A stretch of DNA of 49,866 nucleotides from Acholeplasmatales bacterium (lineage in GTDB: Bacteria > Bacillota_I > Bacilli_A > Acholeplasmatales > Anaeroplasmataceae), in the NCBI GenBank assembly GCA_016280975.1, contig JAEEHU010000021.1, positions 1 to 49,866 of the forward strand, in the 5' to 3' direction. This document shows, in pieces, positions 22,031 to 43,049 of the stretch. Numbering within the stretch: position 1 is the first letter of the stretch; the number at the start of each line of letters is the position of its first letter. Under the pieces are notes generated by a model that made no database searches, had not been told where the DNA came from, and was given only the letters and a program-made list of their open reading frames with translations. Made by a program: the position numbers and the translations under genes.

Positions 22031-23965
22031 TTAAACAGATACGATTTTATTATATTTAACTATGAATTCTACAAATGCATATTGATCTATTGGCTTTGAA
22101 TAGAAATATCCTTGAACATAATCAACCTTCATTGATTTAACCTGATTAATTTGAAGCTCTTCTTCAATTCCTTCAAATACTATCTTATGGCCTAAGCCCT
22201 TAATCATATCAATAGTTGAATTCATTACATATGATGCAATTCTATTTTCAAAATATGAATTAACCATATTCTTATCAAACTTAACAATTTCAACAGGCAT
22301 TTCAACGATATAGTTAAGATTAGAATTACCAGTACCGAAATCATCAAGTGAGAATGATACACCATAATCTCTTAATATTTTCATATTCTTTATAAGAATA
22401 TTTCTTGTTGATTGAGCAGTCTCAGTGATTTCTAAATTGATATATTTAGGATCAACATTATATCTTTCCATTATTTCAATGAATGATACTGCAAGATTCT
22501 CTTGCATGCACTGAACAGCTGATAAATTTACTTCAATATAATGTAAGCCTAAGGCTTCCATATTATTCTTACTAATAAATTCACATACATTTTCAAATAC
22601 TAATCTACCTAGTTCAATTATTCTTCCATCTTTTTCCATTTCTTCAATAAAATCAGATGGATAAATTAAATTGCCTTCATCATCCTTAAGTCTTACTAAA
22701 GCCTCCGCTGCAGTAAAAGATAAGTCTAAGTTAGAATAAATTGGTTGATAGAATACTTCAAAGCTACGCTTAGAAAATGCGACATCACATTTCTTATCCA
22801 TTTGGAACTTCTTATGAATTTCATAAGCAAGTGCCTTATTAACCTCAATAATCTTTTGATCATGAGATTTACTTCTTGTAAGTAAATAATTTATTGAGCT
22901 TAAAATATCTTTTCTATCATAAAATAAAGAAATATCTTCATAATGAATTATCTTAAATGGAATTTCAGATTTAATATTATTTCTTTTATAGATCTGTTCT
23001 TTTAATAAATCAGTTGCCTCTGATAATGCACGAGGGCTTAGAGAATCTCTTACAACAATGAAATTATTATCATCATTTCTAAATATTTTTTCTGCATTAA
23101 ATTCTCTTAATAAATCAGCTATAACCTTAGAAAATTGATTATCACCCATAATAGATGTTGCAATTTGATTATCATAATCAATTAAAACAAATCCTTTTTT
23201 TAGCTTCTTCTTATAGCAAATATCTAAATAATCCTCAAATGCTCTTTGAGTTAAAGCACCTGTTACTCTATCGATATTAAGTGATGGATTTTCAAGCATC
23301 ATATATATTACAAGTGAACCCATCGCTTCAGCAAATGATACTGATAAAATTGTTACACCAGAGCCTGCAAATACATAATTTACTAAGCCTTGAATTGAAG
23401 CACCTAATGTCCATACGCCTAAGAAAATACATACACCAATAAATCTCTTTTTGTACATCATTTTTCTTTTTACAATCGCAATTGCAAGTGTAATACCCAT
23501 TAGAATGAATGTTTCAATATAAGTAACAGTGACAGGAATACCACCGGTAAAGTCATTTAATCCATTAGGATCATAAGTTATTTCAAGTGTAGTTGTATAG
23601 GCAACTATAACACCTGCAATAAACATCACACCACCAAGTATTCTATAAAACCAAATCCACTTCCTCTTCATGTAAGTATCATTTAGTACATAGAATAGAC
23701 CTAGGTAGGCAACTAGCATACATGTAACAACATAAGTTCTACATAATGCATGAGTTAAAAATGAAAAGCTCATCCCATTTGATGCAACACCATCAATATT
23801 TAATGAGACAAGTGAAAAAATATCAATGACTGCGGAAGCAAAAATCGCTAATCCTTGATACAAAAATAGCTTATTTGATTTGACTGCAGCTTTTCTGTCA
23901 TAGAAGTAAAAAATAAAAATTACTATCATTACTACTACGCCAGCAACTTGTAGCAAAATGTTCAT
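22031..23965 (-). CDS. Multi-TM sensor with degenerate GGDEF and EAL domain
   Basis: About 7 N-terminal hydrophobic helices; GGDEF site replaced by RNDDNNF; EAL motifs AAEALVRL, LEITETA, DDFGTGNSNL, QGYFYSKPI. Confidence 0.88.
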   Translation of the reverse strand: MNILLQVAGVVVMIVIFIFYFYDRKAAVKSNKLFLYQGLAIFASAVIDIFSLVSLNIDGVASNGMSFSFLTHALCRTYVVTCMLVAYLGLFYVLNDTYMKRKWIWFYRILGGVMFIAGVIVAYTTTLEITYDPNGLNDFTGGIPVTVTYIETFILMGITLAIAIVKRKMMYKKRFIGVCIFLGVWTLGASIQGLVNYVFAGSGVTILSVSFAEAMGSLVIYMMLENPSLNIDRVTGALTQRAFEDYLDICYKKKLKKGFVLIDYDNQIATSIMGDNQFSKVIADLLREFNAEKIFRNDDNNFIVVRDSLSPRALSEATDLLKEQIYKRNNIKSEIPFKIIHYEDISLFYDRKDILSSINYLLTRSKSHDQKIIEVNKALAYEIHKKFQMDKKCDVAFSKRSFEVFYQPIYSNLDLSFTAAEALVRLKDDEGNLIYPSDFIEEMEKDGRIIELGRLVFENVCEFISKNNMEALGLHYIEVNLSAVQCMQENLAVSFIEIMERYNVDPKYINLEITETAQSTRNILIKNMKILRDYGVSFSLDDFGTGNSNLNYIVEMPVEIVKFDKNMVNSYFENRIASYVMNSTIDMIKGLGHKIVFEGIEEELQINQVKSMKVDYVQGYFYSKPIDQYAFVEFIVKYNKIVSV

Positions 23966-25767: not shown

Positions 25768-28608
25768 CTATGCCTTAAGTTTTCCTTCCTTAATTAATTT
25801 AATAACAACATCTGCCATATGTGGATCAAATTGTATCTCCTTACAGCGTTCAAATTCGGATATAATTTTTTCCTTTGGATAAGGATCCTTATATACCCTT
25901 CTTGTTGCCATCGCGTCAAAGCAGTCTGCACAACAAATAATTCTTGCGATATAAGGTATTTCTTCTCCTTTTAAGCCTTCAGGATATCCTCCACCACCAT
26001 ATCTTTCATGGTGGTATTTAGCACCTGCTTCTATATTTGGAATAGTTGAAATATCTTTTAGAATTGCTGCACCTTTTGTTGTATGGCTCTTCATTATTTC
26101 AAACTCTTCATCTGTAAGTCTTCCAGGCTTATTTAAAATAGCATCTGGAATACCTATTTTACCTATATCATGTAATAGCGCAATATAGTATAGGTTTTCA
26201 AGCTCATCGCCTTCCATACCAAGCGCTTCTGCTATAATTCTTGATGCATGACCAACTCTTATAGAGTGACCATTAGTGTAAGTATCCTTGGCATCGATTG
26301 TACGTGCAATAGCCTCAATTGACTCAATAGTTATTCCCTTTAGCTCGGCTTCTCTTTTCTTTGCTTTTTTATTTCTATTTGTTATAAATATGAAGTTTAA
26401 AGCACCTATTACAAGTAGTCCTAATACAGCAATTAATACCCAGAACCATACAGTTTCAAAATAAGCCTTATCCTTAGTAATAGTTAGGCTAATATCATTT
26501 TGACTTCTAGTTCCATCTGAATCAAGTGTATAAATACTTAATTCATATTTACCACCACGAAGGTTAGTATAATCAATTTTAAATGTTTCAGTTGATTGAA
26601 GAGCATTATATTCATTATCAACACCATTTAATTTATAGTAAACAGTATAATGCTGATCTAGTGTATTACTTAATACTGCAAAATAAATGGTAATTCTGTT
26701 TGCGTCACTCGATAAATTTATATTATTAATATCTACTTCCTTATCATCAATTGATACACCATCAATTGCTACCTTTCTTCTAATCTTTGCTTCCTTTTCC
26801 TTAGAAAAATCATGAACAAAGATTCCTCCTGCAGTCGTGAAATAATAACAATTAGTTGAGCTATCATAATAGCCTGATGAGTTTGCAACTAAGCTACTCT
26901 TAAGTCCATTATTTGAATCTAGAATTTCGAATAATAAATTATCACTAAATATATCATCACAAATATAGATATTTGTATCTGTACCAATTACATATTTATT
27001 ATCAATATAGGCAAGCTCAACAACTGAGCCTACAAAGTTAGCTTTTATTTCAGTTACCTTATCATCCTTATAATAGAATAATTTATTATTGTTATTGAAT
27101 AAAAGCGCACCATTTACATATAAGCACTTAAGTGGAGAGCTTAATTTATCATCAATTATAATTGGAGTATTAAATTCTAAATCTGTTATGGCAAATCCAG
27201 TTTCTTCTAATGCTAGATAAACTGTATCATTTCCATAATAAATATATAATACTCTTTTTGATAATTTCTTATTGTAATAATTTGTACCATCAAATCTACT
27301 TAATCCATAATTTGTACCAATTAACAAATAATTTCCTGCAACCCTAAGGCATCTAACCTGTCCTGCATTATTATAATTAGTTTCACCTGTCTCTGCTAAG
27401 GTTAATGAAGATATTTGATTAATTGTGCCAGTTACTGAATCATACTCAATTAAGTCATATAAATTAGAATCGTATGTTGCGATATAAAGCTTATTTTTAT
27501 ATACCTCTAAATCTCTAATTCTAACATCCTTAAGTAGATTAACTAGTTCATTTTCAATACTACCATTATTCTCATCAACTATATATAGACCTGTTGATGT
27601 TGCGATATAAGTTAAAGAATTATATTTTTCAATTGCATTAACACTTGTTGATTCTAAATTAAATTCAAAGAAATAATCAAATAATTCATTTGTTGTTATC
27701 TTTGATACACCAAATGAGCTTGAGGCAAGCCAAATATTATTTTCATAGTCTACTATTATTCTTTGAATAAATCCCTTAGCCTCTAGATTATCTACCTTTC
27801 TTACCTGATTATTTTCAGATATAAATAATCCAGTATCTGTTGCCATATAAATAATATTATCATGAATAATAATGTCATTTACACATTGGTTTCCACCAAT
27901 ATCTATTGTAGTAATTTCATTAGTGTTAACATTCTTTACTAAAACATTACCACTTTGCTCACCCATATATAAATGTTCATCACTATAATAAACACTTTTT
28001 ATAGGTGTAAACTTATAGTATTCAGAAACGTTAGAACTTAAGCTTCCATATACCTTATATGATGAATCGATATAAAAATACATCTTATCATCAAGTGGAG
28101 CTACCTTAACAATATTTCCCTTACCATTTGGATCAAGCTTAATTGTATTATTAGTAAATGAATATAAATATACACCTGTATCACTAGCTATAAAGGCAAC
28201 ATCTGAATATACCTTTATATCATGAATTGAAATCTTTTCATTTAATGTGTCAATTTCACTGACATTATCATATTCATCTTTAATAAATAAGCCATTTTGA
28301 GTTCCTATTATTACCTTATTTTGATAAGACGCAATTGATGTAATACCAGTTAAGTCATGGTCTTGATAAGTTGTATCAGTTTTAAAGCTTCTTGCATCAT
28401 ATCTAGTTAAGCCTGCATATTGACCAATCCAAATATAACCATCATCAGTTTGACATAAGGTATTTGCCTTACCTGTTAATAAACCATTATTAGCGTTATA
28501 ATTTGTCTCAGTCTTATCGCTTAAAAAAGACGACGCAAAAGCACTGTTAAAACATATTAAAATTGTGAATAAGCTTAAAAATATAGTAATTAATATCTTT
28601 TTTCTCAT
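25768..28608 (-). CDS. Extracellular beta-propeller (reg_prop/Y_Y_Y-like) sensor with TM and HD-GYP output
   Basis: Repeats GYIWIGQYAGLTRYD, NNIWLASSSFGVSKI; TM WFWVLIAVLGLLVIGALNFIFI; HD-GYP LLHDIGKIGIPDAILNKPGRL and HHERYGGGGYPEGL. Confidence 0.9.
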   Translation of the reverse strand: MRKKILITIFLSLFTILICFNSAFASSFLSDKTETNYNANNGLLTGKANTLCQTDDGYIWIGQYAGLTRYDARSFKTDTTYQDHDLTGITSIASYQNKVIIGTQNGLFIKDEYDNVSEIDTLNEKISIHDIKVYSDVAFIASDTGVYLYSFTNNTIKLDPNGKGNIVKVAPLDDKMYFYIDSSYKVYGSLSSNVSEYYKFTPIKSVYYSDEHLYMGEQSGNVLVKNVNTNEITTIDIGGNQCVNDIIIHDNIIYMATDTGLFISENNQVRKVDNLEAKGFIQRIIVDYENNIWLASSSFGVSKITTNELFDYFFEFNLESTSVNAIEKYNSLTYIATSTGLYIVDENNGSIENELVNLLKDVRIRDLEVYKNKLYIATYDSNLYDLIEYDSVTGTINQISSLTLAETGETNYNNAGQVRCLRVAGNYLLIGTNYGLSRFDGTNYYNKKLSKRVLYIYYGNDTVYLALEETGFAITDLEFNTPIIIDDKLSSPLKCLYVNGALLFNNNNKLFYYKDDKVTEIKANFVGSVVELAYIDNKYVIGTDTNIYICDDIFSDNLLFEILDSNNGLKSSLVANSSGYYDSSTNCYYFTTAGGIFVHDFSKEKEAKIRRKVAIDGVSIDDKEVDINNINLSSDANRITIYFAVLSNTLDQHYTVYYKLNGVDNEYNALQSTETFKIDYTNLRGGKYELSIYTLDSDGTRSQNDISLTITKDKAYFETVWFWVLIAVLGLLVIGALNFIFITNRNKKAKKREAELKGITIESIEAIARTIDAKDTYTNGHSIRVGHASRIIAEALGMEGDELENLYYIALLHDIGKIGIPDAILNKPGRLTDEEFEIMKSHTTKGAAILKDISTIPNIEAGAKYHHERYGGGGYPEGLKGEEIPYIARIICCADCFDAMATRRVYKDPYPKEKIISEFERCKEIQFDPHMADVVIKLIKEGKLKA

Positions 28609-28675
28609 AATTATCACAACCATTCTTATGGTTTATTATAACATATTTATAAATATAGAATAACTATTTTGCGTA

Positions 28676-28706
28676 AAAAAAGAGGAAATATTACATTTCC
28701 CCTTGT
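28676..28706 (-). terminator. Rho-independent terminator after the BspA-like gene
   Basis: Minus strand AAGGGGAAATGTAATATTTCCTCTTTTTTT. Confidence 0.7.
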
Positions 28707-28712
28707 TTTTAT

Positions 28713-31700
28713 TTACATCCAAATTGCAGGAAGTCCATTAGAATCAAAATGCCAGTAATTACCTGGAGCTGGTTGAGTTTCTGAATAATAGTATTTTGTC
28801 TTTGTTTTTAAAGTATTATCAATAGCACTTGCGATAGTATTCCATGCCTCACTTGTGCTTGCATAGAATACTTTATATAAAACATTACATTGATAGAATG
28901 AATTTGTTCCAACTGTCGTTATAGTACTTGGAATTACTATATAACTTAATTTAGAACAATATGCAAATGCATTAGATGCAATTACCTCTACTCCTTCTGG
29001 AACAATAACAGCCTCTATTTCTTTATTGTAATAGAATGCAAATTGATAAATGTCATATTTATCTACTTGATTTGAATCGTATTCAAATGATGTAGGTAAT
29101 TTTAAGATAGTATCAGAGCCTTTATAGCCAACTAAATAACCTTTATCTCCGCTATATGCAAATACATATCCATTTGCATCTTCAGTTAAAATTGATTTAT
29201 CTGTTAATGATTTATGAACAGCCATTGCATAATAGCATACATAACCCCAGTATGAACTACCCTTAGTTAAATTGCTCAAGCTTGACAAGTTATATACTTC
29301 AACTAAATCATAACAATTACTAAATGCATTTGAATTAATTGCTGTTAAAGTTGATGGAAGATTAATTCTTACTAAACTATAACAATTACAGAACGCATAT
29401 GTTGCAATTGTTTTTAATCCTTCAGATAATTCTACATATGTTAGGCCTTCACATCGATAGAAAGCATATAAGCCTATTTCAGTTACACTTTCTGGTACTG
29501 TAAGAGTCTTAATTTGATTGAAATTACGGAATGTATATTGACCTATTTTTGTTACTGTATTAGGTATAATAACATCTTCAAGCTTTGTATAATTAGCACC
29601 ATCATAAGTAACTGAACCACTATTATCTAAAATATAGAATGTCATTGGCTTATTAGTATTATACATAGGGCTTGCAGATTCATTCGCAAATGATAATTTT
29701 GCCCAATCTCCTATTGTTCCATCATAATATACATTTTCTAATGCTTGGTCATAATCAAATACACTACTTCCAAATTCTGCATTTAAAGTTTTAACTCTAA
29801 CATTTTTAAGTTTAGTACAATTTGAGAATGCACCAGATCCAATCTTTTCAACACTTTCAGATATTGTTAATGTTTGAAGATTGATACATGCACTAAATGC
29901 ATATGATCCAATTGTTACAAGTTGTGATGGAAGATTTACTTCAGTTATTGCTAAATTATTCTTAAATGCATATGTGCCAATCTTAGTTAATGTTGATGGG
30001 AATGAAACTGAAGTTACAGTTCTAAATCCATAGAATGTATAACTCTTAATTTCTTCTACTCCCTCAGGAATAACAACATCTTCTAAAAGTTTATAATTAT
30101 TGCCATCATATTCAATAGTTCCAGTTGAATCTTTTAGATAGAAATACATTCCATAGCACATAGGTGTTGAATCATCTGTTTCAAATGTATTAGATAACCA
30201 ATCTTCTATAGTGCCATCATAATATACATTTTCAAGACTTGAGCAATCTTTGAAAGAGTATTGTTTAAATGTAACATTTTTACAAGCTAATCTTAAATTT
30301 GTTAATGCTGAATTATCAGAGAATAGCCATTCTCCTAATTCAGTTATTGTGCTTGGAAGTGTTACATCTGTTAAATTTGTACATTCATCAAATGCGTTAT
30401 TTCCAATATATTCTACACCTTCAGGTATAACAATTGATGTAATAGCTGCCCTTGCAAAGCAGTTAGAACCAATTTTCTTTAATGTTGAAGGTAAAGTAAT
30501 TTCATTTATTACGTTAGTAACTGATTCACCATTTAAGTCATTATCAAATGCGCTAGAGCCTAATTCCACAACCTTAGTATTAGCTAGTAATACCTTTTTA
30601 AGCTTAGACATATGAGCAAATGAATAAGAATTAATATATTCAAGTGTAGTTGGGAATGAAATAGATGTTACCGTATTACATTCGTAGAATGCATAATCTC
30701 CAATTCCTATTACACCTTCAGGAATAACAACATTAGTAACGTATGTTAAGGATGTTAATGCACGTGAACCAATTAGTTTACAATCTGAATGAATAGTTAA
30801 GCTATTCATATCTGCGGTAGTACGTCCATATAAATATAAATATGGATTATTTTCATTTCCTAAATATTTGTTATATTCATAAGTTGTAGTCTTTAAATTA
30901 CCACAATTAGTAAATGGATATTCACCATATACTCTATATAAGGAATTAGGTAATGATAAATTAACTAGGCTTGTACAATTATAGAATGCCCTATCTTGAA
31001 TATATTTTAGACCATCTAAAATTGTTATATCAGTTATCTCAGAGCATCCTTCAAATGCTGATTTACCAAGTGTCTCAACTGAACCTGGGATAGTTACCTT
31101 CTTTAATGTAGTATTATTCTTAAATGCACCTTCAAAAATATCATAAGAATTATATGTAACATTATTCTTAGTATATGATTCTGGAAGTGTGATTTCTTCT
31201 TCACTTCCCTCATATCCAAATAAATATCCTTTTGAGTCAACATCAATAAATATAAATCCATCGCTATCAGTTTCAAAAATTGAAGGTTCAGATAATGATG
31301 TATGAATTACTAAGGCATTCTTTGTAACATTGCCATAAGTTGATGAACCAATCTCAAATTCTAAGTTAGATAAATTATATACTTCTAATAATTTTGTACA
31401 ACTAGAGAATGCATAATCACCAATTGATGTAACATTAGCTGGAATTACAATTGATGTTAATGATGAACAGGTATTAAATGCACTTTGATTAATAGTTGTA
31501 ATAGTTGATGGTAATGTAACTGATGTTAGTGATGTACAATCACAAAATAATAGTTTTGAAACATTTTTTACACCCTCATATAGAATTGCAGTCTTTATAT
31601 TAGTACAACCTTGGAATGGTTTAGAGCTTATATAACTAGAATTAGTACACTTAATTTCTACTGATTCAAGCTTCTCATTATAGATGAATTCTCCTGTACC

Positions 31701-34700
31701 AGTAGTTGTCGCCTTTAGGTTTGTTGGAAGAACTACATGTTTTAAACCACTATATGCAAATACATATTGACCTAATTCTTCTAATGATTCAGGAAGATCA
31801 CATTCTTCTAAATTAGGACATTTATAGAATGCATATGAATTAATCTTCTTTAAATTTGGAAGAATTACCTTTGTAAGACTTGCACATTCTTGGAATGCAG
31901 AATCCATAAGATAAGTATTTGCACCATCCATTTGAGATAAATCGGCAAACTCAATACTTGATTTTTCAAATGCATGATTATTAATTGTTTTTAATGTAGA
32001 TGGCGCAACAAAACTCTTGATATTTGTTAAAGAAAAACCATACCAATCTATTGTTGTAAGATTGTTTGAAAGTGTAACATTAGTAAGCTTTGTACAGCTT
32101 AAGAACATATATTCAGCAACTTTATTTATACCACCTAAATCAGCACTTACAAGAGATGTACATCCATTAAATAGATATGAACCTAGCTCACAAGATGAAG
32201 TAACCTCACTCAAGTCAATTGAAGTTAAACTTGTACAACTTGCAAATGCACGTTCACCAAGTGATACTATATTTTCACCTAACTTTAATGATGTTATACC
32301 AGTTTGATAGAATGCATAAGTACCAATTGATGTAACGCTATCTGGAATATTAATAGTCTTTAAGTATGATGCACCTCTAAATGCATTATTTGCTATTTCA
32401 GTTATATTTCCTGTTATAGTTAAATCTCTTAAAGTTCTAGGGACATAAGTATAAGTTGTTGATGTATAACCAAACATATAATTAAGTGTTTGGTTTGTAG
32501 TTCCATTACCTAAGAATGGTACTGATAATACTTCAATTGTTTGGTTAAACTCTAAAATCTTACCTAAAGATACAACTGAATTTGGAATAATTAGTGATTT
32601 TAAATTTTTACAAGCTGAGAATGCTGATTCAAGTACAATCTCACAACCATCCTTTACTTCTATATCAACTGCAGTCTTATCTGCTTTAATAAACCACTTA
32701 TATGGATTATCCTCAGGTCCAAAGTAATTACCGCCTTTTCCATCAGATGTTAAAACTAATTTTCTACAGTTATCAAATGCATGATCACCTATTGTTTCAA
32801 TACTATTTGGAAGTGTTACTGATGCTAAGCTTCTACAACCCGAGAATAAATATGAAGAAATTTCTGTGATAGCTAAATCCTTAAGTGAAATATTCTTAAT
32901 TGCTTCACAATTTTGGAATGCACCAACACCTATATATTCAATTGTTGAAGGAAGATTAATACTATTTAATGTATAACAGCTACCAAATGCATAATCTCCA
33001 ATTCTTGTCACATCACCAAGAAGTTGAATTTTTTGAACGCCATAACAATATCTAAATACACCTTCATTTATTTCTGTAATTGATGAAGGAACTTTAATTG
33101 TAGTTATATTTGAACAACCAGCAAATGCATATGCGCCAATTGATGTAATATTTTCTGTAATTGAAATACTTCTTAAGCCAGAACAACCATAGAATGCGCT
33201 CTCGCCAATTTCAGTAACACTATCTGGAATATTAATAGCTTCTAAGCTTGAGCATCCACTAAATAATCCATTTGGAATATATGTTAACTCGACTAATGTT
33301 ACTTCTTCTGATGTTGTTTCTTCTAAGAATGTTACTTCTTCTAGGCTCTTACAATTTTTAAATACATTATTACCAAAATTTGATATAGTAGCTGGTAGTG
33401 TAAGCTTTTTAATACCAAATCCATAGAATTGATAATTACCTAATTCTGTAACAGTTTCTGGAATTTCTAATTCATCAATTAAACTATATTTATTACCAAA
33501 TAAAGTATTATCTCCATTTGAATCCTTTATATAGAAATTAGATGCATAATACATTGGGGTATAAGTTTCTTCTTCAAAACTATAATCTAGCCAATCTAGC
33601 ATAGTACCATCAAAATATACACTCTTTAAGCCTTTTAAATAAGAGAATGGTTGATAGCCAATACTTCCAATTGAGCATGCAAACACTATATTTTCAACGC
33701 TTGACACGCTATCGAATGAATAAGAGTCAATACTTATATTCTCACCTGTTATACGAAGTGTCTTTAATTTTTCTGGTCTAGATGAAGATCCACTTCCTAC
33801 ACTACTAAATAAATTGCCAAAATAATAATCATATGGAACATCAAGTGTTTCTAGATTATCACACTTATATAAAACACTAGATGCCATTTGTGTGCCAGCC
33901 TTAAATGATATACTTGTATAATCTCCAAATGCAAGTGCACCATCATAAACCTTAACAATATCTTCTGGAATAGTTAAAGTCTTACTATCACCGATATATG
34001 CTAATAATACTTTATCTTCTCCATCTTTATATGTAACATAGCCACCAGTCTTATCTAAGAAATTATCTTCTTTATCAGTAATATTAGCTGAATACCATCC
34101 GACATATCCATTACTTGTTGATCTACTAATAGAAAGATTTGATTTATTTATTACTTGCTTTAATTTATTACAATATTGGAATGCATTTGTGTTAATTTGT
34201 GATAAGCTTTCTGGAAGTGTTATTTCATAAAGACTTGAACAATATTGGAATGCATATGCTCCAATTGTTTCCATACTTGATATATCTAATTCTTTCAATA
34301 CCTGATCGCTACTAAATGAATAATTATAAGCAGTTTTACAGCTCTTAATTGATACAGATTTTAAGCTTGTACAGCCAGAAACTGCTCTAATACCGATATA
34401 TGTCACACCATCAGCTTTAAATGATTTCATATTTGTACAACCATTAAATACATAATCATTTATTACTTTAACATTATTATCAAGTGTAACTGTTTCAATT
34501 AGCTTATTACCTTGGAATAAGTTACTTGAAATTTCAATACTATAATCTTCAATCGCATCAATTACTAAATCAGAAGATGTTACCTTATATGATAGAATTG
34601 TTGCCCACTTTTCTTCTCCTGATGTATAAGTATAATAAATCATATTATCAGTTCTAAACACTTGTTGTGGAGCATCATCTGAATCATGTACTACTTTTGC

Positions 34701-36008
34701 GTAATATCCTAAATATCCATTATATTCTGATCCAGTAGATGTATAAATATCAGGGCTTAGATTATAAACCTCATATAGATTACTACATCCATAAAATGCG
34801 TTATTTCCAATATTTTCAACTGACTCTGGTATAGTAACCATATTTATACTTTTATTACTCATAAATGCACTTGCGCCAATTGAATAATATTCATAAGTAT
34901 TATCTCCAATAGTTACTGTTTCAGGTAAAACTAAATCTGAATCTGTACCAGAATATGCAACTATTGTTGGGTAATCATTTTCAACCATAAATAGATAATC
35001 ACCAACAACACTAAATAAAGAATTATCATTCAATGAATCATGAATTACTCTAGCATAATATGCTATATATCCATAATCTGTAGAATCAATTTCAAGTTGT
35101 AATTTATCACTAGCATTTTCACTTGAACTATTAAATATTTCATATAATCTATTACAACCATAAAATGCATCGTCTCCTATTTCAGGCTTAGAATTAATTA
35201 CTAAGCTTAAAATAGTTGAATACTCAAAAGCATAACTGCCGATTGTATTTAAGGTTTTTGGTAGGATAACCTTACTTAAAGCATCATTATAAAATGCACT
35301 AGTTTCTATTTCAGTTACACCCTCTGGAATAATTAATGTTTCAGGTGCTTGTGCTACTAAGCCTTTAATAACACATGATGATTGAGTTGATGTAAATTCA
35401 AAATACTTAAAACTATCTGATACCTCAAATTTAGCATTAATATCTAAATTTGAAGTTATATTAAATGAATATGTTTTATCTTCTGATAATAACTCATCAC
35501 CATCATACCAACCTATAAAGTCATATCCAATATTAGGCTTTGCGGTTAGGATAGCATTATTATCATAAGTATAATATTCGCCACTACCAGAAACAATACC
35601 AATATTTGATGAAATTTCTTCAAGTGATAATGTAAATTTTAATGCCTTATATTTAATTTCAATTACAATATCACCATTTTTAGTGATTGTTTTTTGGCTA
35701 AATTCTTGAGCCACATAGCCTGGAAATTCTTTAGTTTGAGCATTTGTTAACTTTCCAACCTCGCCAGCTAAATTTTCTTGAGATACTAAATCATAGCCAC
35801 CATTTTTATTTTCAAGCTCATGCTTTACTATATATCCTTCAGCATCTCCTTTTGGCTTTATAGCATCAGGAATATCTAAATTAGGGTCAATAGTTTCATC
35901 AACTGTACCTCTATATTTTCCTGTTTGATTTGGATTTACTCCATTTTGACAAGAGGCTAAAGCTAAAAGTGAAATTGCTGCTAATGTTAATAAAATTCTT
36001 TTTTTCAT
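28713..36008 (-). CDS. Giant (2431 aa) BspA-like leucine-rich-repeat lipoprotein
   Basis: Lipobox LLALASCQN; many LRR_5 units (e.g. IPDSVTEIGESAFYGCSGLRSISI); N-terminal InlB B-repeat-like segment (GYDFIGWYDGDELLSEDKTYSFNITSNLDINAKFE). Confidence 0.93.
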   Translation of the reverse strand: MKKRILLTLAAISLLALASCQNGVNPNQTGKYRGTVDETIDPNLDIPDAIKPKGDAEGYIVKHELENKNGGYDLVSQENLAGEVGKLTNAQTKEFPGYVAQEFSQKTITKNGDIVIEIKYKALKFTLSLEEISSNIGIVSGSGEYYTYDNNAILTAKPNIGYDFIGWYDGDELLSEDKTYSFNITSNLDINAKFEVSDSFKYFEFTSTQSSCVIKGLVAQAPETLIIPEGVTEIETSAFYNDALSKVILPKTLNTIGSYAFEYSTILSLVINSKPEIGDDAFYGCNRLYEIFNSSSENASDKLQLEIDSTDYGYIAYYARVIHDSLNDNSLFSVVGDYLFMVENDYPTIVAYSGTDSDLVLPETVTIGDNTYEYYSIGASAFMSNKSINMVTIPESVENIGNNAFYGCSNLYEVYNLSPDIYTSTGSEYNGYLGYYAKVVHDSDDAPQQVFRTDNMIYYTYTSGEEKWATILSYKVTSSDLVIDAIEDYSIEISSNLFQGNKLIETVTLDNNVKVINDYVFNGCTNMKSFKADGVTYIGIRAVSGCTSLKSVSIKSCKTAYNYSFSSDQVLKELDISSMETIGAYAFQYCSSLYEITLPESLSQINTNAFQYCNKLKQVINKSNLSISRSTSNGYVGWYSANITDKEDNFLDKTGGYVTYKDGEDKVLLAYIGDSKTLTIPEDIVKVYDGALAFGDYTSISFKAGTQMASSVLYKCDNLETLDVPYDYYFGNLFSSVGSGSSSRPEKLKTLRITGENISIDSYSFDSVSSVENIVFACSIGSIGYQPFSYLKGLKSVYFDGTMLDWLDYSFEEETYTPMYYASNFYIKDSNGDNTLFGNKYSLIDELEIPETVTELGNYQFYGFGIKKLTLPATISNFGNNVFKNCKSLEEVTFLEETTSEEVTLVELTYIPNGLFSGCSSLEAINIPDSVTEIGESAFYGCSGLRSISITENITSIGAYAFAGCSNITTIKVPSSITEINEGVFRYCYGVQKIQLLGDVTRIGDYAFGSCYTLNSINLPSTIEYIGVGAFQNCEAIKNISLKDLAITEISSYLFSGCRSLASVTLPNSIETIGDHAFDNCRKLVLTSDGKGGNYFGPEDNPYKWFIKADKTAVDIEVKDGCEIVLESAFSACKNLKSLIIPNSVVSLGKILEFNQTIEVLSVPFLGNGTTNQTLNYMFGYTSTTYTYVPRTLRDLTITGNITEIANNAFRGASYLKTINIPDSVTSIGTYAFYQTGITSLKLGENIVSLGERAFASCTSLTSIDLSEVTSSCELGSYLFNGCTSLVSADLGGINKVAEYMFLSCTKLTNVTLSNNLTTIDWYGFSLTNIKSFVAPSTLKTINNHAFEKSSIEFADLSQMDGANTYLMDSAFQECASLTKVILPNLKKINSYAFYKCPNLEECDLPESLEELGQYVFAYSGLKHVVLPTNLKATTTGTGEFIYNEKLESVEIKCTNSSYISSKPFQGCTNIKTAILYEGVKNVSKLLFCDCTSLTSVTLPSTITTINQSAFNTCSSLTSIVIPANVTSIGDYAFSSCTKLLEVYNLSNLEFEIGSSTYGNVTKNALVIHTSLSEPSIFETDSDGFIFIDVDSKGYLFGYEGSEEEITLPESYTKNNVTYNSYDIFEGAFKNNTTLKKVTIPGSVETLGKSAFEGCSEITDITILDGLKYIQDRAFYNCTSLVNLSLPNSLYRVYGEYPFTNCGNLKTTTYEYNKYLGNENNPYLYLYGRTTADMNSLTIHSDCKLIGSRALTSLTYVTNVVIPEGVIGIGDYAFYECNTVTSISFPTTLEYINSYSFAHMSKLKKVLLANTKVVELGSSAFDNDLNGESVTNVINEITLPSTLKKIGSNCFARAAITSIVIPEGVEYIGNNAFDECTNLTDVTLPSTITELGEWLFSDNSALTNLRLACKNVTFKQYSFKDCSSLENVYYDGTIEDWLSNTFETDDSTPMCYGMYFYLKDSTGTIEYDGNNYKLLEDVVIPEGVEEIKSYTFYGFRTVTSVSFPSTLTKIGTYAFKNNLAITEVNLPSQLVTIGSYAFSACINLQTLTISESVEKIGSGAFSNCTKLKNVRVKTLNAEFGSSVFDYDQALENVYYDGTIGDWAKLSFANESASPMYNTNKPMTFYILDNSGSVTYDGANYTKLEDVIIPNTVTKIGQYTFRNFNQIKTLTVPESVTEIGLYAFYRCEGLTYVELSEGLKTIATYAFCNCYSLVRINLPSTLTAINSNAFSNCYDLVEVYNLSSLSNLTKGSSYWGYVCYYAMAVHKSLTDKSILTEDANGYVFAYSGDKGYLVGYKGSDTILKLPTSFEYDSNQVDKYDIYQFAFYYNKEIEAVIVPEGVEVIASNAFAYCSKLSYIVIPSTITTVGTNSFYQCNVLYKVFYASTSEAWNTIASAIDNTLKTKTKYYYSETQPAPGNYWHFDSNGLPAIWM
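29540..29730 (-). repeat. Copy 1 of the YYDGTxxDW non-LRR insertion module
   Basis: NVYYDGTIGDWAKLSFANESASPMYNTNKPMTFYILDNSGSVTYDGANYTKLEDVIIP. Boundaries approximate. Confidence 0.7.
30040..30226 (-). repeat. Copy 2 of the YYDGTxxDW insertion module
   Basis: NVYYDGTIEDWLSNTFETDDSTPMCYGMYFYLKDSTGTIEYDGNNYKLLEDVVIP. Boundaries approximate. Confidence 0.7.
33411..33617 (-). repeat. Copy 3 of the YYDGTxxDW insertion module
   Basis: SVYFDGTMLDWLDYSFEEETYTPMYYASNFYIKDSNGDNTLFGNKYSLIDELEIP. Boundaries approximate. Confidence 0.7.
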
Positions 36009-36019
36009 ACTTTAACCTC

Positions 36020-38944
36020 CTATTCTGTTATAGTTATATTTTGAATTGCTACAATAACAGCATTCATTTCATCATTTAAATAATATTCATTATCATAATA
36101 ATACTTATAAATTGAATAAACCTTATATTCTCCTACCTCACTAAATGACGGTATATCATCACTCCATGTAGCACCTTCATCAATTGAATATAAAACATCA
36201 TATTCATCTGTTAATGATTCAATTGAGAATATTATTCTTGATGCATATAAAGTATCAAGATTTGATAAGCTTACATTTCTATCCTCCGGATTAATAACAT
36301 AAAGAATTATGTTATATTGACTTCCTTCAACTATCATATCTTCTTTTCCTGCTACTGATGGCTTTTCCTCATAGTAGAATGGATAGCTAAAATGAACGCT
36401 TCCTTCAAGTGTAACATATCCCTCACAGCTTACTTCATATGTAAAATCAGGATTATCAGGATTCTTTTCAGATACAGTAACTGTAACATCAAGTGCCTCA
36501 TGAGTCATACTATTATAGTAACTTGAATTCTTTAAAATATTAGTATAAATCTCATAAGTATCACTATCTGGTGAAATAGTTGAGCCATCTTCTGCAGTTA
36601 GATATTCATATACGATTTCTGATTCACCACCAGGGAAATATGAATATCTTAATGTTCTATTATCATTTGAAATAATATCTATATTACTACCTAAAAGTTC
36701 AAGTCCATCAGATGCAATAACACCAGTTGTAATTAAGACTGTTGATGAGCCTCTTAATATAATATCAGATCCAACCTTATAATAAACTGTATGCTCTCCA
36801 ACCTCATCAATTGAAACATTTGCTTCATAAGTTACACCATCAGTTGAATATAAAACTGGGCTTTCAGATATTACAAAATCAAAATTAGTTCCAGGATAAT
36901 AATTTAAGCTATTCTTTATACTATATTCTGGTAAGCCATCTGGCGCTGTAAGTGAGAAATATACACTTAACAATAATGCAGATCTACGATTACTTGCATC
37001 CGGATATGTTAAGAATTCAACTGTAGATAAGCTATCAACTGGGAATCTATAAGTACTTGATGATGTAGCTAAATAAGTAGATGAATTGTCATCTAATGTA
37101 TCAGTCGGAAGATTAATATATCCTTCAAAGTCTGATAAGCCAAAATGACTAAGTAGATAAGATGTTGAAATTAAATAATTATCATCTTCTACAGTAATAT
37201 CACTTGTATTAAAGAAATAGCTATTTTCAGCTAATCTAACTACCATAACATCATCAATAGAAACTTCAATATCGTTATAATTTCTATATTCGCTATAATC
37301 AAATGTTAATGTAGTAGTTAAGGTATAATCAGTAAATGTAATAGTTACTTCAAATTCATTTACTCCAGAGCTTAATTCATAATAGCCTTCTGTTTTATAA
37401 TCATAATTAAATGAAACACTCTCATAATCATCTGATGTTAAGATTTTATTTCCAACAGTAAATTCAATATCACCAAATAATTCAGACTCTTTAACACCAT
37501 TATATTTGTTAAAACTACTTATTTCTGATATATCTAGATAACCTGATGTTGAAATTGCACGTGTTGAATGTAATCCAACATTTGAGGCAGTAAGATTGAT
37601 TGTAAAAGTACTACTATTATAATAATCAGCTATATCGCTAGGAAGTGTGATATCAAGTTCGTACTCTTTTGAACCATTTACTAGATTTCCTGTTCCTGTA
37701 AATGTTGAATTTGAGATATATGCGCTATCTCCTTCTGCACCTTTAATATCGATATAATCAAAGATATTAAATTTAGATAAAGCTAAATCAACACTCATAC
37801 CTGATATTAAACCAGGAACTGTTATATTATTCTTATATTCTATTTTTAAATCAGCTTTCTTTATTTCAATTACTGCATAATCCTCTTTTGCAGTAAAGCC
37901 TTCTGCTGAAATCTTATAATATACTCTATAAGATCCAGGAATTTTAAATATAGGATTAATCTCACTATATTCATCATTCTCATTCATCTTATAAAGAATA
38001 GTTGATTTTGGTGTTTTAACATCAATTGATATTTGATGATCTAATCCATCATATTGACCAAAATAGCCTGATGCTTGATATTCAATTTCAGAATATTGAA
38101 GAGTTTGACCAGTTTCCTTTGAAACCTTATCAATAACCTCTTGATAATCAGCCTCACTTGGTGGGGCAACAGTTAATTCAACCTCATCAAGATTTTGATT
38201 AGCATCTGCCTCATCATCAAATTGTTCATTTACATCACTTACCCAGTTATCTAGGATTTGATTAAATGAATCCTCTGGAACAACATTATCCTTAGGTACT
38301 GTTATTTCCATCTTTGAATTAGAAATATCAGAAATCTTACCCTTTATTACCTCATTATCCTTAACATCAAATACATAAAGCTCTGTAACACCCTTATATA
38401 CAGAATATTCCTCTACATATTCATTTTCGGTTTCACGTACGGCAAGACCAAATACTGTACCTCTTACGGCCATTACTGAGTTATTAGATGATAGGAAGAA
38501 TTCCTCATCCTCACCTAATTGGTTTTTAACCTCAGCTAAAACTTTACCACGAGTAACATAAACATTAGTCTTATATTTATCCTTACCCTCAGATTTAATC
38601 TTAACCTCTGTATTTTCACCTAAATAAATATATTTATCTTGGTCGAATTTAACAACAATTACTGATTCTGCCTTAACATTTAAGGTATCACCATCATATA
38701 AATTCATCCCCTTAAAGCAATTAATTGTCTCATTATCAGCTGTAACAGATGCCTCACCATCTATTTGAACAACCTTAATAGATCTTGCTTGATAAGAGTT
38801 GTTTGGCTCAACAACTGGATTATCTTGATTTTGAGATGGCTGTGAATTACTACCACCTAGTGTTAAAACCAAAATCAAAGTAAGTGCTGTTGCGAATACT
38901 ACAATTGATGAAATAATAATAATTAATAGTTTCTTCTTACTCAT
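36020..38944 (-). CDS. FecR-domain protein, single N-terminal TM, extended extracellular Ig-like/YDG-like region
   Basis: N-terminal TM; FecR core RSIKVVQIDGEASV...GENTEVKIKSEG...VYVTRGKVLAEVKN...NNSVMAVRGTVFGLAV; later GQYDGLDHQISIDVKTPKSTILYKMNENDEYS. Confidence 0.87.
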   Translation of the reverse strand: MSKKKLLIIIISSIVVFATALTLILVLTLGGSNSQPSQNQDNPVVEPNNSYQARSIKVVQIDGEASVTADNETINCFKGMNLYDGDTLNVKAESVIVVKFDQDKYIYLGENTEVKIKSEGKDKYKTNVYVTRGKVLAEVKNQLGEDEEFFLSSNNSVMAVRGTVFGLAVRETENEYVEEYSVYKGVTELYVFDVKDNEVIKGKISDISNSKMEITVPKDNVVPEDSFNQILDNWVSDVNEQFDDEADANQNLDEVELTVAPPSEADYQEVIDKVSKETGQTLQYSEIEYQASGYFGQYDGLDHQISIDVKTPKSTILYKMNENDEYSEINPIFKIPGSYRVYYKISAEGFTAKEDYAVIEIKKADLKIEYKNNITVPGLISGMSVDLALSKFNIFDYIDIKGAEGDSAYISNSTFTGTGNLVNGSKEYELDITLPSDIADYYNSSTFTINLTASNVGLHSTRAISTSGYLDISEISSFNKYNGVKESELFGDIEFTVGNKILTSDDYESVSFNYDYKTEGYYELSSGVNEFEVTITFTDYTLTTTLTFDYSEYRNYNDIEVSIDDVMVVRLAENSYFFNTSDITVEDDNYLISTSYLLSHFGLSDFEGYINLPTDTLDDNSSTYLATSSSTYRFPVDSLSTVEFLTYPDASNRRSALLLSVYFSLTAPDGLPEYSIKNSLNYYPGTNFDFVISESPVLYSTDGVTYEANVSIDEVGEHTVYYKVGSDIILRGSSTVLITTGVIASDGLELLGSNIDIISNDNRTLRYSYFPGGESEIVYEYLTAEDGSTISPDSDTYEIYTNILKNSSYYNSMTHEALDVTVTVSEKNPDNPDFTYEVSCEGYVTLEGSVHFSYPFYYEEKPSVAGKEDMIVEGSQYNIILYVINPEDRNVSLSNLDTLYASRIIFSIESLTDEYDVLYSIDEGATWSDDIPSFSEVGEYKVYSIYKYYYDNEYYLNDEMNAVIVAIQNITITE

Positions 38945-40769
38945 GGTATTCTCCCTCGTATCCCATAATATTTACTACTTCAAAACATTTAACTGGTTCC
39001 TTTTTGTTTTTAAACATTCTATCACCAGCATCTATAACCTCTACCCTATCCTTGATAACATCATAAACATCCTTAGAAATTAAAACCTGATTTCCAGATG
39101 CTGATGCTTCAATTCTAGATGCGGTATTAACTGTATCACCTATAGCTGTAAAGTCCATTCTAGTTTTAGAACCGATATTACCAATAACGGCATCACCATA
39201 ATGAACACCAACTCCGAATTCGAGCTTCTTATTATATTTTTCAAAAACTCTATCACAAATTGGCTTACCCTCTTTTACAATTCCATAGGCAGCACATACT
39301 GCTTTAAATATATAGTCATCTAAATCTACTGGTGCGTTAAATATAGCCATAACGCAGTCTCCAATAAATTTATCTACCATTCCACCATATTTAAATACCT
39401 GATTAGTTGACATCTCTAAGTATCCATTTAGGATATCAACAACATCCTCTGGATTTAATTCCTCACTCATCTTTGTAAATCCACGAATATCTACAAATAG
39501 ACAAGCAACATTTCTTTTTCTACCACCAAGTGCCATCGCATCTCTTTGCTTTTCAACTAATGCCTCTGCGACATCTGGTGAAATATAACGCTTAAATGTA
39601 CCTATTACTTCTTTCTTATGCTTATATTCGTTATAGTAGTGTAGGATTATTAATACTACAAACGCTACTGTTAAAACAATAAGTGGTAGTGTAATAAAGT
39701 AATATAGCTTAGCTGAATACATTATTAAAGATAAAATGAATTCTAAGCCAATTCCAAATAGGAATGCTACCATTCCTAAATAGAATATTAATGAAGTCAT
39801 TAAGAATGTTATAGCAAATGCTACAAATGTATTTATTAGAATATTTCCATATGCTGGCATATCCATATAAATTTCATTATTCATTAATGCCTCAATGATA
39901 TTACACTGTACCTCTACTCCAAACATCTCACCTATTGGAGAATTATAAATATCATTTGAAAGTCCTGTATCAACGGCACTTGCATAAGAACCAAATACTA
40001 CTATTTTTTCTCTAGTTCGAGAATAAGTTGAAGGATTACTTGAATCTCTAATTAAATCTGCCATTGAAATATAGCTAAACTTTGATGATACATTTTGAAC
40101 CTTGCCATCACCTGTATAATTTAATTCTGGCTTAGCATAATATTTAAAATAATATGCCTTATTCTCATCATAAGCCTTTAGCTCAATATTATTCTTATTT
40201 GCATATTCACTATAAATAGCATATGCAAGGCTATCATAATTTTTGCTTCTTAAATAAGTCTTTCTTACAGCCTCATCGCTATCTGTTTTAGCATCAACAT
40301 AACCTATAGCCTTAGAGCCCTCATAAATAGTATTTGATAGTCCATATGGGCTTTCAGTTCTACTCATACCATTTACACCTAAGATTACATTATGCTTAAG
40401 CATTGCGCTTTTTAAATTTGAATCGACTGTATCACAATCTCTTGCCTTATTAAAAATTACATCAAAGCCTATCGCATCAGGATGATATCCCTTTGTATCC
40501 CACATATTTAGGATATTAGCAAAATATCCTCTATATTCTACTGGATCATAGGCTCCATAATTTTCAATTGTTTCATCATCAATTCCAACAAGTAAAATCT
40601 CTGGTGCGGCATCTCCAACATGCTGATACATCGCATCATTTAATTTACTATCAACAATACCTAAAGGATTATAAAATGTAGCGATTATTGAAATAATAAG
40701 CATTAATAATGCAGCGACGCCTGAAAATATTAAATTTTTAAAGCTAAATCTAAATATCTTATTTTTCAT
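38937..40769 (-). CDS. CHASE2-domain class III adenylate/guanylate cyclase
   Basis: CHASE2-like PEILLVGIDDETIENYGAYDPVEYRGYFANIL; C-terminal TM cluster; cyclase ACLFVDIRGFTKMSE, GGMVDKFIGDCVMAIFNAP, DFTAIGDTVNTASRIE. Confidence 0.93.
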   Translation of the reverse strand: MKNKIFRFSFKNLIFSGVAALLMLIISIIATFYNPLGIVDSKLNDAMYQHVGDAAPEILLVGIDDETIENYGAYDPVEYRGYFANILNMWDTKGYHPDAIGFDVIFNKARDCDTVDSNLKSAMLKHNVILGVNGMSRTESPYGLSNTIYEGSKAIGYVDAKTDSDEAVRKTYLRSKNYDSLAYAIYSEYANKNNIELKAYDENKAYYFKYYAKPELNYTGDGKVQNVSSKFSYISMADLIRDSSNPSTYSRTREKIVVFGSYASAVDTGLSNDIYNSPIGEMFGVEVQCNIIEALMNNEIYMDMPAYGNILINTFVAFAITFLMTSLIFYLGMVAFLFGIGLEFILSLIMYSAKLYYFITLPLIVLTVAFVVLIILHYYNEYKHKKEVIGTFKRYISPDVAEALVEKQRDAMALGGRKRNVACLFVDIRGFTKMSEELNPEDVVDILNGYLEMSTNQVFKYGGMVDKFIGDCVMAIFNAPVDLDDYIFKAVCAAYGIVKEGKPICDRVFEKYNKKLEFGVGVHYGDAVIGNIGSKTRMDFTAIGDTVNTASRIEASASGNQVLISKDVYDVIKDRVEVIDAGDRMFKNKKEPVKCFEVVNIMGYEGEYHE

Positions 40770-40791
40770 AACTTTCCCTAATTACTTTTTC

Positions 40792-42225
40792 TTAACTTTT
40801 AAATTCTATGAATATTTCAACGAGTCTTTTATCAAGCTTACCTTCCTTATTAGCCATTTCATTTAAAATAGAAAGAGCTCTTTCGTTAGGCATTGGCTTT
40901 TTATAAGGTCTATCTGTTGAAACTAAGGATTCATAAATATCAACTATAGTAATGATTCTTACTAAAATTGATAAATCACTATCCTTTAGCTTATTTGGAT
41001 AGCCTGTACCATTTAAATATTCATGATGGCTTGCTGCAATATTTTTAACGTTACTGTATTTTTTACCAAATTTGATTTCCTTTAAAATCTCATTTGTATA
41101 AACAACATGCTTTTCAATTTCTAATCTTTCGGCTTGTGTTAATGTACCTCTTCTAATTAGTGCACACTCAAGCTCATTATCCTTTAGTATTTCAAGCTCA
41201 CCATAAGGAGTATCATATTTCTTATCCTTAATCTCATTTATAAAATTCAAATCATCATCAGATAAAAATGATGAATCATTTAATCTATTTATAAATGTGA
41301 TGATTTTATCTAAATATGATTTTTCCTTTTCATATTCATCCTTAGTGTATTTATTTTCCAAGTAATTATTTTTTATACAAGAATCAATTAGCTCATATCT
41401 TAAATTCATCATATCAATTGAACCTTCAAATCTTTTAGCCTTATTTAAAATCTCTAAAGGTACAATTAATTTACCAACATCATGTAGCATACAAGCTAGT
41501 ACTAATTCTTCTTTTTTATCCTTTGAAATGAAATAATAATTCTTTTCATTGATATAATCTACAAAGCTTGATGCAATGTTTGCTACATTTATTGTATGGA
41601 ATGCATTATATGGAGTTCTAGATTCAATTGCCTTTACCATGGCACTTACAAATGAATCTAATAATTCCTTAATGTTTTCATATAGTCTCATGTTATTAAG
41701 TAACACACTTGATAAAGAAGATAATGAATAAATAATTCTTTCCACTTCCTTTGAAAATGGAATTATCTTATCATTTTCAGTTGCGTTAATTAATTGCATT
41801 ACACCTAATACATTAGAATCTCTATCTAATAGTGGTAATACTAAAACTGATTCTGTGTGATAGTTATTAAGCTTATCATATTTCTTTGGACCCTCCCAAT
41901 TAAATATGCTATCCTTATAAACATCACTTACGTTTACTATCTTTTTAGTTCTAGCTGAGTAAGATGCGACACTTTGAGAATTAATATCAACTGGTGGTAA
42001 TTCTATTTTTTCATTTAGACCACCCTTTTTTATTCCCTTTGATTTTGTAATCATAAAGAAGAAATTTAATTTATCCTCATCTAAAAGATATAATGTTCCG
42101 CCATCTGCGTTTGATATTTCCATACCATCTTCTAATATTCTTGTTAATAGCTTTGTATAATCCTTTTCCTTAGTGATACTTTCAGTTATTTCAAGTATCC
42201 TTTCTAGATTTTCATTTAAAAGCAC
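40792..42225 (-). CDS. GAF domain plus HD-GYP-type phosphodiesterase
   Basis: GAF-like N-terminus (DGGTLYLLDEDKLNFFFM...LGVMQLINA); CMLHDVGKLIVPLEILNKAKRF and ASHHEYLNGTGYPNKL. Confidence 0.88.
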   Translation of the reverse strand: MLLNENLERILEITESITKEKDYTKLLTRILEDGMEISNADGGTLYLLDEDKLNFFFMITKSKGIKKGGLNEKIELPPVDINSQSVASYSARTKKIVNVSDVYKDSIFNWEGPKKYDKLNNYHTESVLVLPLLDRDSNVLGVMQLINATENDKIIPFSKEVERIIYSLSSLSSVLLNNMRLYENIKELLDSFVSAMVKAIESRTPYNAFHTINVANIASSFVDYINEKNYYFISKDKKEELVLACMLHDVGKLIVPLEILNKAKRFEGSIDMMNLRYELIDSCIKNNYLENKYTKDEYEKEKSYLDKIITFINRLNDSSFLSDDDLNFINEIKDKKYDTPYGELEILKDNELECALIRRGTLTQAERLEIEKHVVYTNEILKEIKFGKKYSNVKNIAASHHEYLNGTGYPNKLKDSDLSILVRIITIVDIYESLVSTDRPYKKPMPNERALSILNEMANKEGKLDKRLVEIFIEFKS

Positions 42226-42986
42226 TTGAAATCACTACCTTTCAAATAATTAATTGAATTAACTACCTTATCATAATCTCTAATCTCAATTAATATTGAT
42301 GTATCATCAGGTAATTTATTTATAAGCTTATAAGCATTTTTATAATCGATTATACCCTTACCTAATTCCATATGAGAATCAACTATCTTATCGTTATCAT
42401 TGATATGAATATGCCTAATATACTTAGAAAGCTTATTAAACCATTCCTCAATTGGAACAGGTGATATAGATGCGTGAGCAATATCAAGACATACTCCAAT
42501 TCTTTCATCATTTATTTCATTCATTAAACGAGCAAGTAGATCTGGGGCTAAATCAAACATATTCTCAACATATATTTCTAAGCCCTTATATTCACTTGCT
42601 AATTTTAAGAACAATTCCTTATGAACCTTAACCCAGTTATCCTGATATACTTTATCCTTCATCCAAGTTATATAATTTGTATGGAATACTACTCCCTTAC
42701 AATTAAGCTTTAAAGCAATATCAAGTGATGATCTTACTCTTTCTAATGATACTTCCTTTATTTTTTTATCCACTGAATCAAGAGTAATATCATAAAATAC
42801 TCCATGAAGTGTATCACCTTTTCTTTTTAAGCTTTGATATTTTGAAATAGTATCATTTAATTTCTCATTATTATCAAGTAAATTAGGATCAAAAAAGTCA
42901 TTGTATTCAAAGCCTAAATTATAATCACTTGCAAGCTTTAAATACTTATCTAATTCACTTAAATTTGGAATGACATAATACTTCAT
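42216..42986 (-). CDS. Sugar phosphate isomerase/epimerase-like TIM-barrel protein
   Basis: GVVFHTNY, IYVENMFDLAPDLLARLM, IGVCLDIAHASIS, HIHINDND, ELGKGIIDY. Start moved to 42986 (GGAGG-N6-ATG). Confidence 0.8.
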   Translation of the reverse strand: MKYYVIPNLSELDKYLKLASDYNLGFEYNDFFDPNLLDNNEKLNDTISKYQSLKRKGDTLHGVFYDITLDSVDKKIKEVSLERVRSSLDIALKLNCKGVVFHTNYITWMKDKVYQDNWVKVHKELFLKLASEYKGLEIYVENMFDLAPDLLARLMNEINDERIGVCLDIAHASISPVPIEEWFNKLSKYIRHIHINDNDKIVDSHMELGKGIIDYKNAYKLINKLPDDTSILIEIRDYDKVVNSINYLKGSDFKCF

Positions 42987-43021: not shown

Positions 43022-43049
43022 ATTATAACATAATAATAAATATTATCAA
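43022..43049 (-). promoter_or_regulatory. Putative promoter of the five-gene signalling operon: TTGATA - 16 bp - TATAAT
   Basis: -35 at 43044-43049, -10 at 43022-43027, preceded by TG in the spacer. Confidence 0.5.

Follow-up and report, generated by a model that had tools for sequence, protein, structure and literature searches.

A conserved cAMP-type signalling operon in Anaeroplasma with a potentially new class of enzyme

Textbook accounts usually describe low-GC Gram-positive bacteria as managing without cyclic AMP (cAMP) signalling, and gut Clostridia are not commonly credited with it. What, then, is the role of a row of five genes with a CHASE2 adenylate cyclase at its centre in an Acholeplasmatales bacterium? 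The row lies on the minus strand of contig JAEEHU010000021.1 (assembly GCA_016280975.1), whose whole length of 49,866 nucleotides was analysed and is called the window here. It encodes a TIM-barrel protein, a GAF-HD-GYP protein, the cyclase, a FecR-domain surface protein and a BspA-like leucine-rich-repeat (LRR) lipoprotein. We find that the row is a genuine and conserved operon for cAMP-type signalling, and that one of its products may represent a new class of enzyme. On balance, we lean slightly towards the view that it supplies one half of a cAMP signalling pathway, the components at the surface and in the membrane, with output through a cyclic nucleotide receptor and an RCK-domain channel. 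The host is a gut bacterium of the GTDB genus Anaeroplasma, a wall-less genus assigned to Mollicutes by NCBI, and the window is one entire contig of a 1.59 Mb assembly that is 99% complete.

Gene set and its conservation

The initial annotation had proposed a closely spaced, co-directional operon, and its gene map was borne out. All five open reading frames (ORFs) were located on the minus strand where it had placed them, the stated distances between them (an overlap of 10 bp, a gap of 22 bp, an overlap of 8 bp and a gap of 11 bp) are exact, and the named domains (AP_endonuc_2, GAF+HD_5, CHASE2+Guanylate_cyc, FecR and LRR_5) all score above the Pfam cut-offs. The genes are probably transcribed as one unit. 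A promoter-like site lies 5' of the TIM gene (43022..43049, minus strand; TTGATA-16-TATAAT at 43049-43022), matching 11/12 positions with an extended -10, by consensus only, and the TIM start has a GAGGAGG ribosome site. A terminator-like hairpin of 11 pairs, only 3 of them G-C, with a T-run lies 3' of the LRR gene (28680..28704, minus strand). Both sites are present and well placed, as had been claimed, but in a region this rich in A+T such matches do not exceed the chance level (promoters 95 against 121 by chance, hence below it; terminators 3 against 3.4, hence equal), and the two sites are therefore weak evidence for the operon. Co-directionality and spacing by themselves could be chance as well; a conserved gene set could not.

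A lack of conservation in relatives had been named beforehand as a ground for dropping the proposal; when relatives were checked for the gene set, it was found to be conserved. FecR and LRR genes accompany the cyclase gene as a pair: CHASE2 cyclase, FecR and LRR are contiguous in eight other loci of the order (G008, G024, G023, G018, G009, G002, G011 and G040:C55, the last from another family), and the set is split in the relative G019. The order in G008 is cyclase-FecR-LRR-FecR-LRR, with the pair in tandem twice behind one cyclase; FecR-LRR therefore duplicates as a unit. In G036, G040:C41 and G025 a divergent cyclase, with 31-39% identity to that of the window, stands next to TIM, GAF-HD and FecR genes; in G006 and G043 its neighbours are TIM and GAF-HD. 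The window unites the partners of both cyclase versions. That the same TIM-GAF-HD family stands beside two very different cyclases speaks for a functional connection and against mere passive synteny.

A distant scan, using one genome per species, gave 80 named loci, mostly from Lachnospiraceae and other Clostridia. Within 9 kb of 73 cyclase loci from outside Anaeroplasmatales, FecR was found in 55/73, TIM in 44/73 and GAF-HD in 30/73. Eight of the 73 had none of the three, and just two of those eight have 5 kb or more on each side. Of two CHASE2-cyclase regions read in plasmid records, one has no annotation and the other is annotated without a FecR product.

The cyclase and its surface partners

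The cyclase gene (38937..40769, minus strand) encodes CHASE2 (PF05226, 103.6 bits) and a class III adenylate cyclase domain (PF00211, 81.6 bits). Transmembrane segments were predicted at 13-31, 306-324, 331-349 and 358-376, which gives a predicted layout of one transmembrane segment, an extracellular CHASE2 domain, three transmembrane segments and a cytoplasmic cyclase domain. An inactive cyclase domain had likewise been named beforehand as a ground for dropping the signalling proposal, and the catalytic residues proved intact. In an alignment of homologues D427, K467, D471, T541 and N548 are invariant (92/92) and R552 is present in 91/92; these comprise the metal-binding Asp427/Asp471, the adenylate-type purine pair Lys467/Thr541 and the transition-state residues Asn548/Arg552. 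From these residues we predict an active cyclase with cAMP as its product. The initial annotation had left the product as cAMP or cGMP; cAMP is favoured, and cGMP is the less likely product because of the K/T residues at the purine site.

The FecR gene (36020..38944, minus strand) sits beside the cyclase gene with the 8-bp overlap, in an arrangement that is conserved. Its product has an N-terminal membrane anchor (transmembrane segment 8-26), a FecR domain at about 86-176 and a long string of beta-sandwich, immunoglobulin-like (Ig-like) modules to the C-terminus, as judged from Pfam, transmembrane prediction and an AlphaFold2 model searched with Foldseek. The FecR sequence matched no solved structure, and the fold search of the model gave nothing but Ig-like domain strings at very low TM scores. 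The LRR gene (28713..36008, minus strand) encodes a lipoprotein of 2431 aa with the lipobox LASC at 17-20 and 17 LRR_5 stretches (1055 bits). Both proteins should face the outside.

Nothing beyond the name of the FecR domain speaks for a classical anti-sigma regulator relaying outer-membrane signals. The membrane anchor begins at residue 8, PF04773 is the only domain found, and there is no cytoplasmic anti-sigma part. Pfam searches of the flanking ORFs found neither a sigma factor nor an outer-membrane receptor beside the operon, and Omp85 was not found in the genome by a search that was positive in diderm controls. Both results agree with the earlier description of a probably single-membraned cell with no such genes adjoining the operon. 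We therefore rejected the anti-sigma role, to which we attach next to no credence. It is the FecR domain that is conserved with CHASE2 proteins everywhere, and for this reason we infer that it is the likeliest partner of CHASE2, probably through direct contact.

LRR proteins of the BspA type are known chiefly as adhesins, and the nearest NCBIfam model to the LRR protein is HupY/LrrG. The C-terminal regions of FecR resemble Ig/S-layer strings, and the large partner varies by lineage: it is an LRR protein here, and in Clostridia there is no LRR but unrelated secreted proteins of 480-1240 aa in 19 loci, mostly with an N-terminal hydrophobic segment. Such features would suit an adhesin assembly that is merely co-expressed with the cyclase and passes no signal into CHASE2. 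However, it is FecR and not LRR that is kept beside CHASE2 cyclases in deep branches (in a FastTree phylogeny with long branches, which shows depth only and not transfer routes) and beside CHASE2 kinases in Burkholderia (PMC5192318). FecR thus goes with CHASE2 rather than with adhesion, and we consider the adhesin explanation unlikely.

The TIM-barrel and GAF-HD-GYP proteins

The first gene of the operon (42216..42986, minus strand) encodes a TIM-barrel protein of the AP_endonuc_2 fold. It carries the nine metal ligands of endonuclease IV (H61, H102, E141, D168, H171, H194, D203, H205 and E234), which are invariant in 54/54 sequences; the same set is given for a solved endonuclease IV (PMC13113976). 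Its AlphaFold2 model (pLDDT 96) is nearest in Foldseek to TTHB071 and MJ1311, both uncharacterised, followed by endonuclease IV and epimerases. Identity as Nfo was rejected (39 bits against an NCBIfam cut-off of 244), as was identity as CbiR, a phosphodiesterase and the best curated family (43 bits against 105). Since all nine ligands are conserved and the nearest curated family is a phosphodiesterase, we predict that the TIM protein is a metal phosphodiesterase, possibly with cAMP as its substrate. It shares the metallo-phosphodiesterase ligand set with the CbiR/endonuclease IV branch of the AP endonuclease 2 superfamily (PMC7733943, PMC13113976), but it falls under the family cut-offs and its context is a cyclase and a receptor rather than cobamide metabolism or DNA repair.

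Across 160 genomes of the order, TIM was found in 14/14 cyclase-positive genomes (a count that includes G002, where it is a fragment at a contig edge) against 3/146 negative ones (within-genus p = 2.8e-5), and GAF-HD in 12/14 against 3/146 (within-genus p = 1.8e-3). The TIM protein, and not the HD-GYP protein, is therefore the closest companion of the cyclase. The initial annotation had missed both this and the phosphodiesterase-like character of the TIM protein. A phylum-wide search for TIM was positive in 2/344 genomes, neither clostridial; the TIM-like genes of G311 and G077 were set aside as their neighbours are unrelated.

A sugar isomerase/epimerase or DNA-repair enzyme with no tie to nucleotide signalling would share this fold, and Foldseek does match the model to 3-epimerases and endonuclease IV at TM scores of 0.7-0.8. 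Yet all nine endonuclease IV ligands are kept, the D-x-H ligand pair is absent from two aligned epimerase-like PDB chains, and the protein scores below the NCBIfam cut-offs for Nfo, CbiR and all epimerases. Moreover, the TIM gene lies immediately 3' of the cyclase in 40/78 loci. An epimerase or repair function thus appears improbable.

The second gene (40792..42225, minus strand) starts with GTG and encodes a GAF-HD-GYP phosphodiesterase-like protein with an insert of about 100 aa within the HD domain. The HD...HHExxxGxGYP signature and the metal ligands are complete, with the HD, HHE and GYP residues invariant in 6/6. The GAF part resembles the cyclic-nucleotide-binding GAF domains of PDE5 and of the cyanobacterial cyclase CyaB2, though the Asn-Lys-Phe-Asp-Glu hallmark of the latter, judged by eye, is incomplete. 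The solved structures nearest to the catalytic part are PmGH (4mcw) and V-cGAP3 (5z7c), enzymes that cut cyclic di-GMP (c-di-GMP) or cyclic GMP-AMP (cGAMP).

These relatives raise the possibility that the TIM and GAF-HD proteins serve a cyclic-dinucleotide pathway, in which the HD-GYP domain would open c-di-GMP and the TIM enzyme would finish the linear dinucleotide, the operon being shared for co-regulation or cross-talk only. The two genes are a near-constant pair, kept in three cyclase-negative genomes that also have no receptor (G010, G013 and G017), and the window also encodes GGDEF-EAL and EAL proteins. The three genomes imply that the pair has a use without this cyclase, and they speak against an exclusively cAMP-related role for TIM. 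Against the dinucleotide pathway, TIM tracks the cyclase in 14/14 genomes, and 22 clostridial cyclase loci have TIM but no GAF-HD, more than the 8 that have GAF-HD but no TIM. Furthermore, GAF-HD is missing from A. bactoclasticum (98% complete) and from G019, and both keep TIM beside the RCK and cyclic nucleotide-binding genes, which favours a cAMP-related role for TIM. We regard the dinucleotide pathway as a possible but doubtful explanation.

Several other genes of cyclic-dinucleotide type were observed. The GGDEF-EAL and EAL proteins lie at 897-3128 and 22031-23965 of the window (minus strand), a c-di-GMP toolkit in a Mollicutes genus. The next gene downstream of the LRR gene, past the hairpin (25768-28623, minus strand), encodes a Reg_prop/Y_Y_Y beta-propeller sensor fused to HD-GYP in place of a histidine kinase. 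GAF-GGDEF or GGDEF diguanylate-cyclase genes adjoin CHASE2 cyclases in many clostridial loci (the neighbourhood of L113:9968-11761, L088:269-1297 and L143:5407-6705), a hint of cross-talk between cAMP and c-di-GMP.

Candidate output, pathway and known counterparts

Outside the window, the same genome encodes a stand-alone protein with a cyclic nucleotide monophosphate (cNMP)-binding domain (G000:C2:3229-3711), paired with a two-transmembrane, RCK-domain channel (G000:C2:2039-3229); it is a candidate receptor. Short stand-alone proteins of this kind were restricted to cyclase-positive genomes in a scan of 60 relatives, and a profile search of the 160 genomes of the order found the receptor in 9/14 cyclase-positive against 0/146 negative genomes (within-genus p = 1.6e-3). 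The receptor scores 70 bits to PF00027 and resembles the binding domains of PKA, PKG and HCN. Its phosphate-binding cassette, FGEMAL.D.DKRSATV, is found in 10/10 bar conservative changes, with the invariant Gly-Glu and Arg of FGE...R.AT intact. The receptor gene always comes next after the two-transmembrane/RCK-domain (Slo-like_RCK) gene, usually upstream of an Mbeg1-like/D-Ala-D-Ala-ligase fusion, and the whole set is present in the window's genome (G000:C2:2039-6172). The pore motif of the channel and its homologues is AGNDY/FGQDF or similar rather than the canonical K+ filter TVGYG, and among solved chains plant CASTOR is the closest. The channel operon directly adjoins the cyclase operon in G025; two Lachnoclostridium loci (L131, L133) have the order cyclase-x-x-FecR-RCK-cNMP-TIM, and a cNMP protein was seen in 12/78 cyclase loci. 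The receptor and RCK channel, which the initial annotation did not include, are the likely output.

Other Lachnospiraceae have a cNMP_binding-SpoIIE fusion directly 5' of the cyclase (L128:6039-7217; similar in L072, L078, L092, L093, L116 and L143), with anti-sigma-kinase-type (HATPase_c_2) and STAS genes downstream and GGDEF genes there too; a cAMP-controlled partner switch is possible in these loci. In G008:C62 (L046/L047), from a genome without the RCK-cNMP pair, SpoIIE-HATPase, STAS, RelA/SpoT-type, Na/H-exchanger and TrkA_C genes lie between TIM-GAF-HD and the cyclase. The lipase-type Mbeg1-like/D-Ala-D-Ala ligase fusion is the third gene of the RCK-cNMP operon in the window's genome (L146:3725-6172) and is divergent from TIM-GAF-HD in G008 (L182:6227-8665); a D-Ala-D-Ala ligase fusion is unexpected in a wall-less genus.

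In the cAMP pathway that we favour, FecR with its membrane anchor and Ig-like stalk and the LRR lipoprotein would together act as a recognition module outside the cell. When a surface ligand is engaged, the signal would pass to the CHASE2-cyclase dimer by contact between the FecR domain and CHASE2, and the dimer would make cAMP. Binding of cAMP to the stand-alone receptor may then control the co-operonic RCK channel. The TIM metalloenzyme would reset the nucleotide signal as a phosphodiesterase, and the GAF-HD-GYP protein may remove a cyclic nucleotide, either a cyclic dinucleotide or cAMP itself, under GAF control. A few points weigh against this pathway. The window alone has all five genes contiguous among the loci compared, and 5/14 cyclase-positive genomes have no stand-alone receptor. 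The TIM-GAF-HD pair persists in the three genomes without cyclase or receptor, genomes within one genus are not independent, and the 80 named loci are best matches to the query rather than a random sample. We hold more tentatively a fuller version, in which TIM is a cNMP phosphodiesterase with a fold outside the known classes I-III and, with FecR/LRR, the CHASE2 cyclase, the cNMP subunit and the RCK channel, covers the entire cAMP route from surface to channel, both in Mollicutes and in gut Clostridia.

The initial annotation had put the locus forward as the strongest candidate in the window for an undescribed system, which does not hold for its core. Campylobacterota have a cluster of a CHASE2-adenylate cyclase with a cAMP phosphodiesterase, a FecR-domain protein and a TPR protein (PMC9239204). 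Both have a CHASE2-class III cyclase with FecR and a phosphodiesterase-like gene next to it, and a patchy distribution; candidate counterparts of the cAMP phosphodiesterase in the present operon are two phosphodiesterase-like genes (TIM and GAF-HD-GYP), whose products may act on cAMP. It differs in its single-membrane, wall-less host, in an LRR lipoprotein in place of the TPR protein (none of the five proteins matched TPR in Pfam), and in the TIM-barrel enzyme, GAF-HD-GYP and the RCK-channel/cNMP receptor as candidate output. The BiofilmReg operon of Burkholderia, which controls biofilm, likewise has a FecR protein adjoining a CHASE2 sensor, but this is a LysM-FecR protein with a CHASE2 histidine kinase and a response regulator (PMC5192318); the output is thus a histidine kinase and not cAMP, and the anchor is to peptidoglycan through LysM and not to the membrane. 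In Sinorhizobium the CHASE2 cyclases CyaD1/D2/K respond to a plant protein via NsrA, with Clr as the regulator and the FecR-domain protein SMc02177 as a Clr target (PMC13001267, PMC5498481). These too are CHASE2 cyclases to which a distinct surface protein relays a signal that is itself a protein, but with an outer-membrane beta-barrel receptor and a CRP-type regulator, neither of which is encoded in the present operon. In magnetotactic bacteria mtxA, encoding a TPR protein, precedes a CHASE2 cyclase (PMC4439547). The literature searched, which did not include subscription papers, yielded no description of the version in Bacillota, of the TIM gene or of the link between receptor and channel. 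The novelty lies in the presence of the system in Mollicutes and Clostridia, in the TIM enzyme and in the receptor-channel output.

The cyclase, FecR, LRR, TIM, receptor and channel genes are all present in A. bactoclasticum ATCC 27112 (G018, NZ_QXEV01000024.1; its TIM copy is at G018:C8:72879-73637), and if the pathway is real, the long-standing questions of what CHASE2 senses and why FecR adjoins it would be directly testable in this cultured strain. A TIM-barrel cNMP phosphodiesterase, if true, would be a new enzyme class. If the proposed pathway is true, Anaeroplasma and many gut Lachnospiraceae would gain a host- or surface-sensing second-messenger system.

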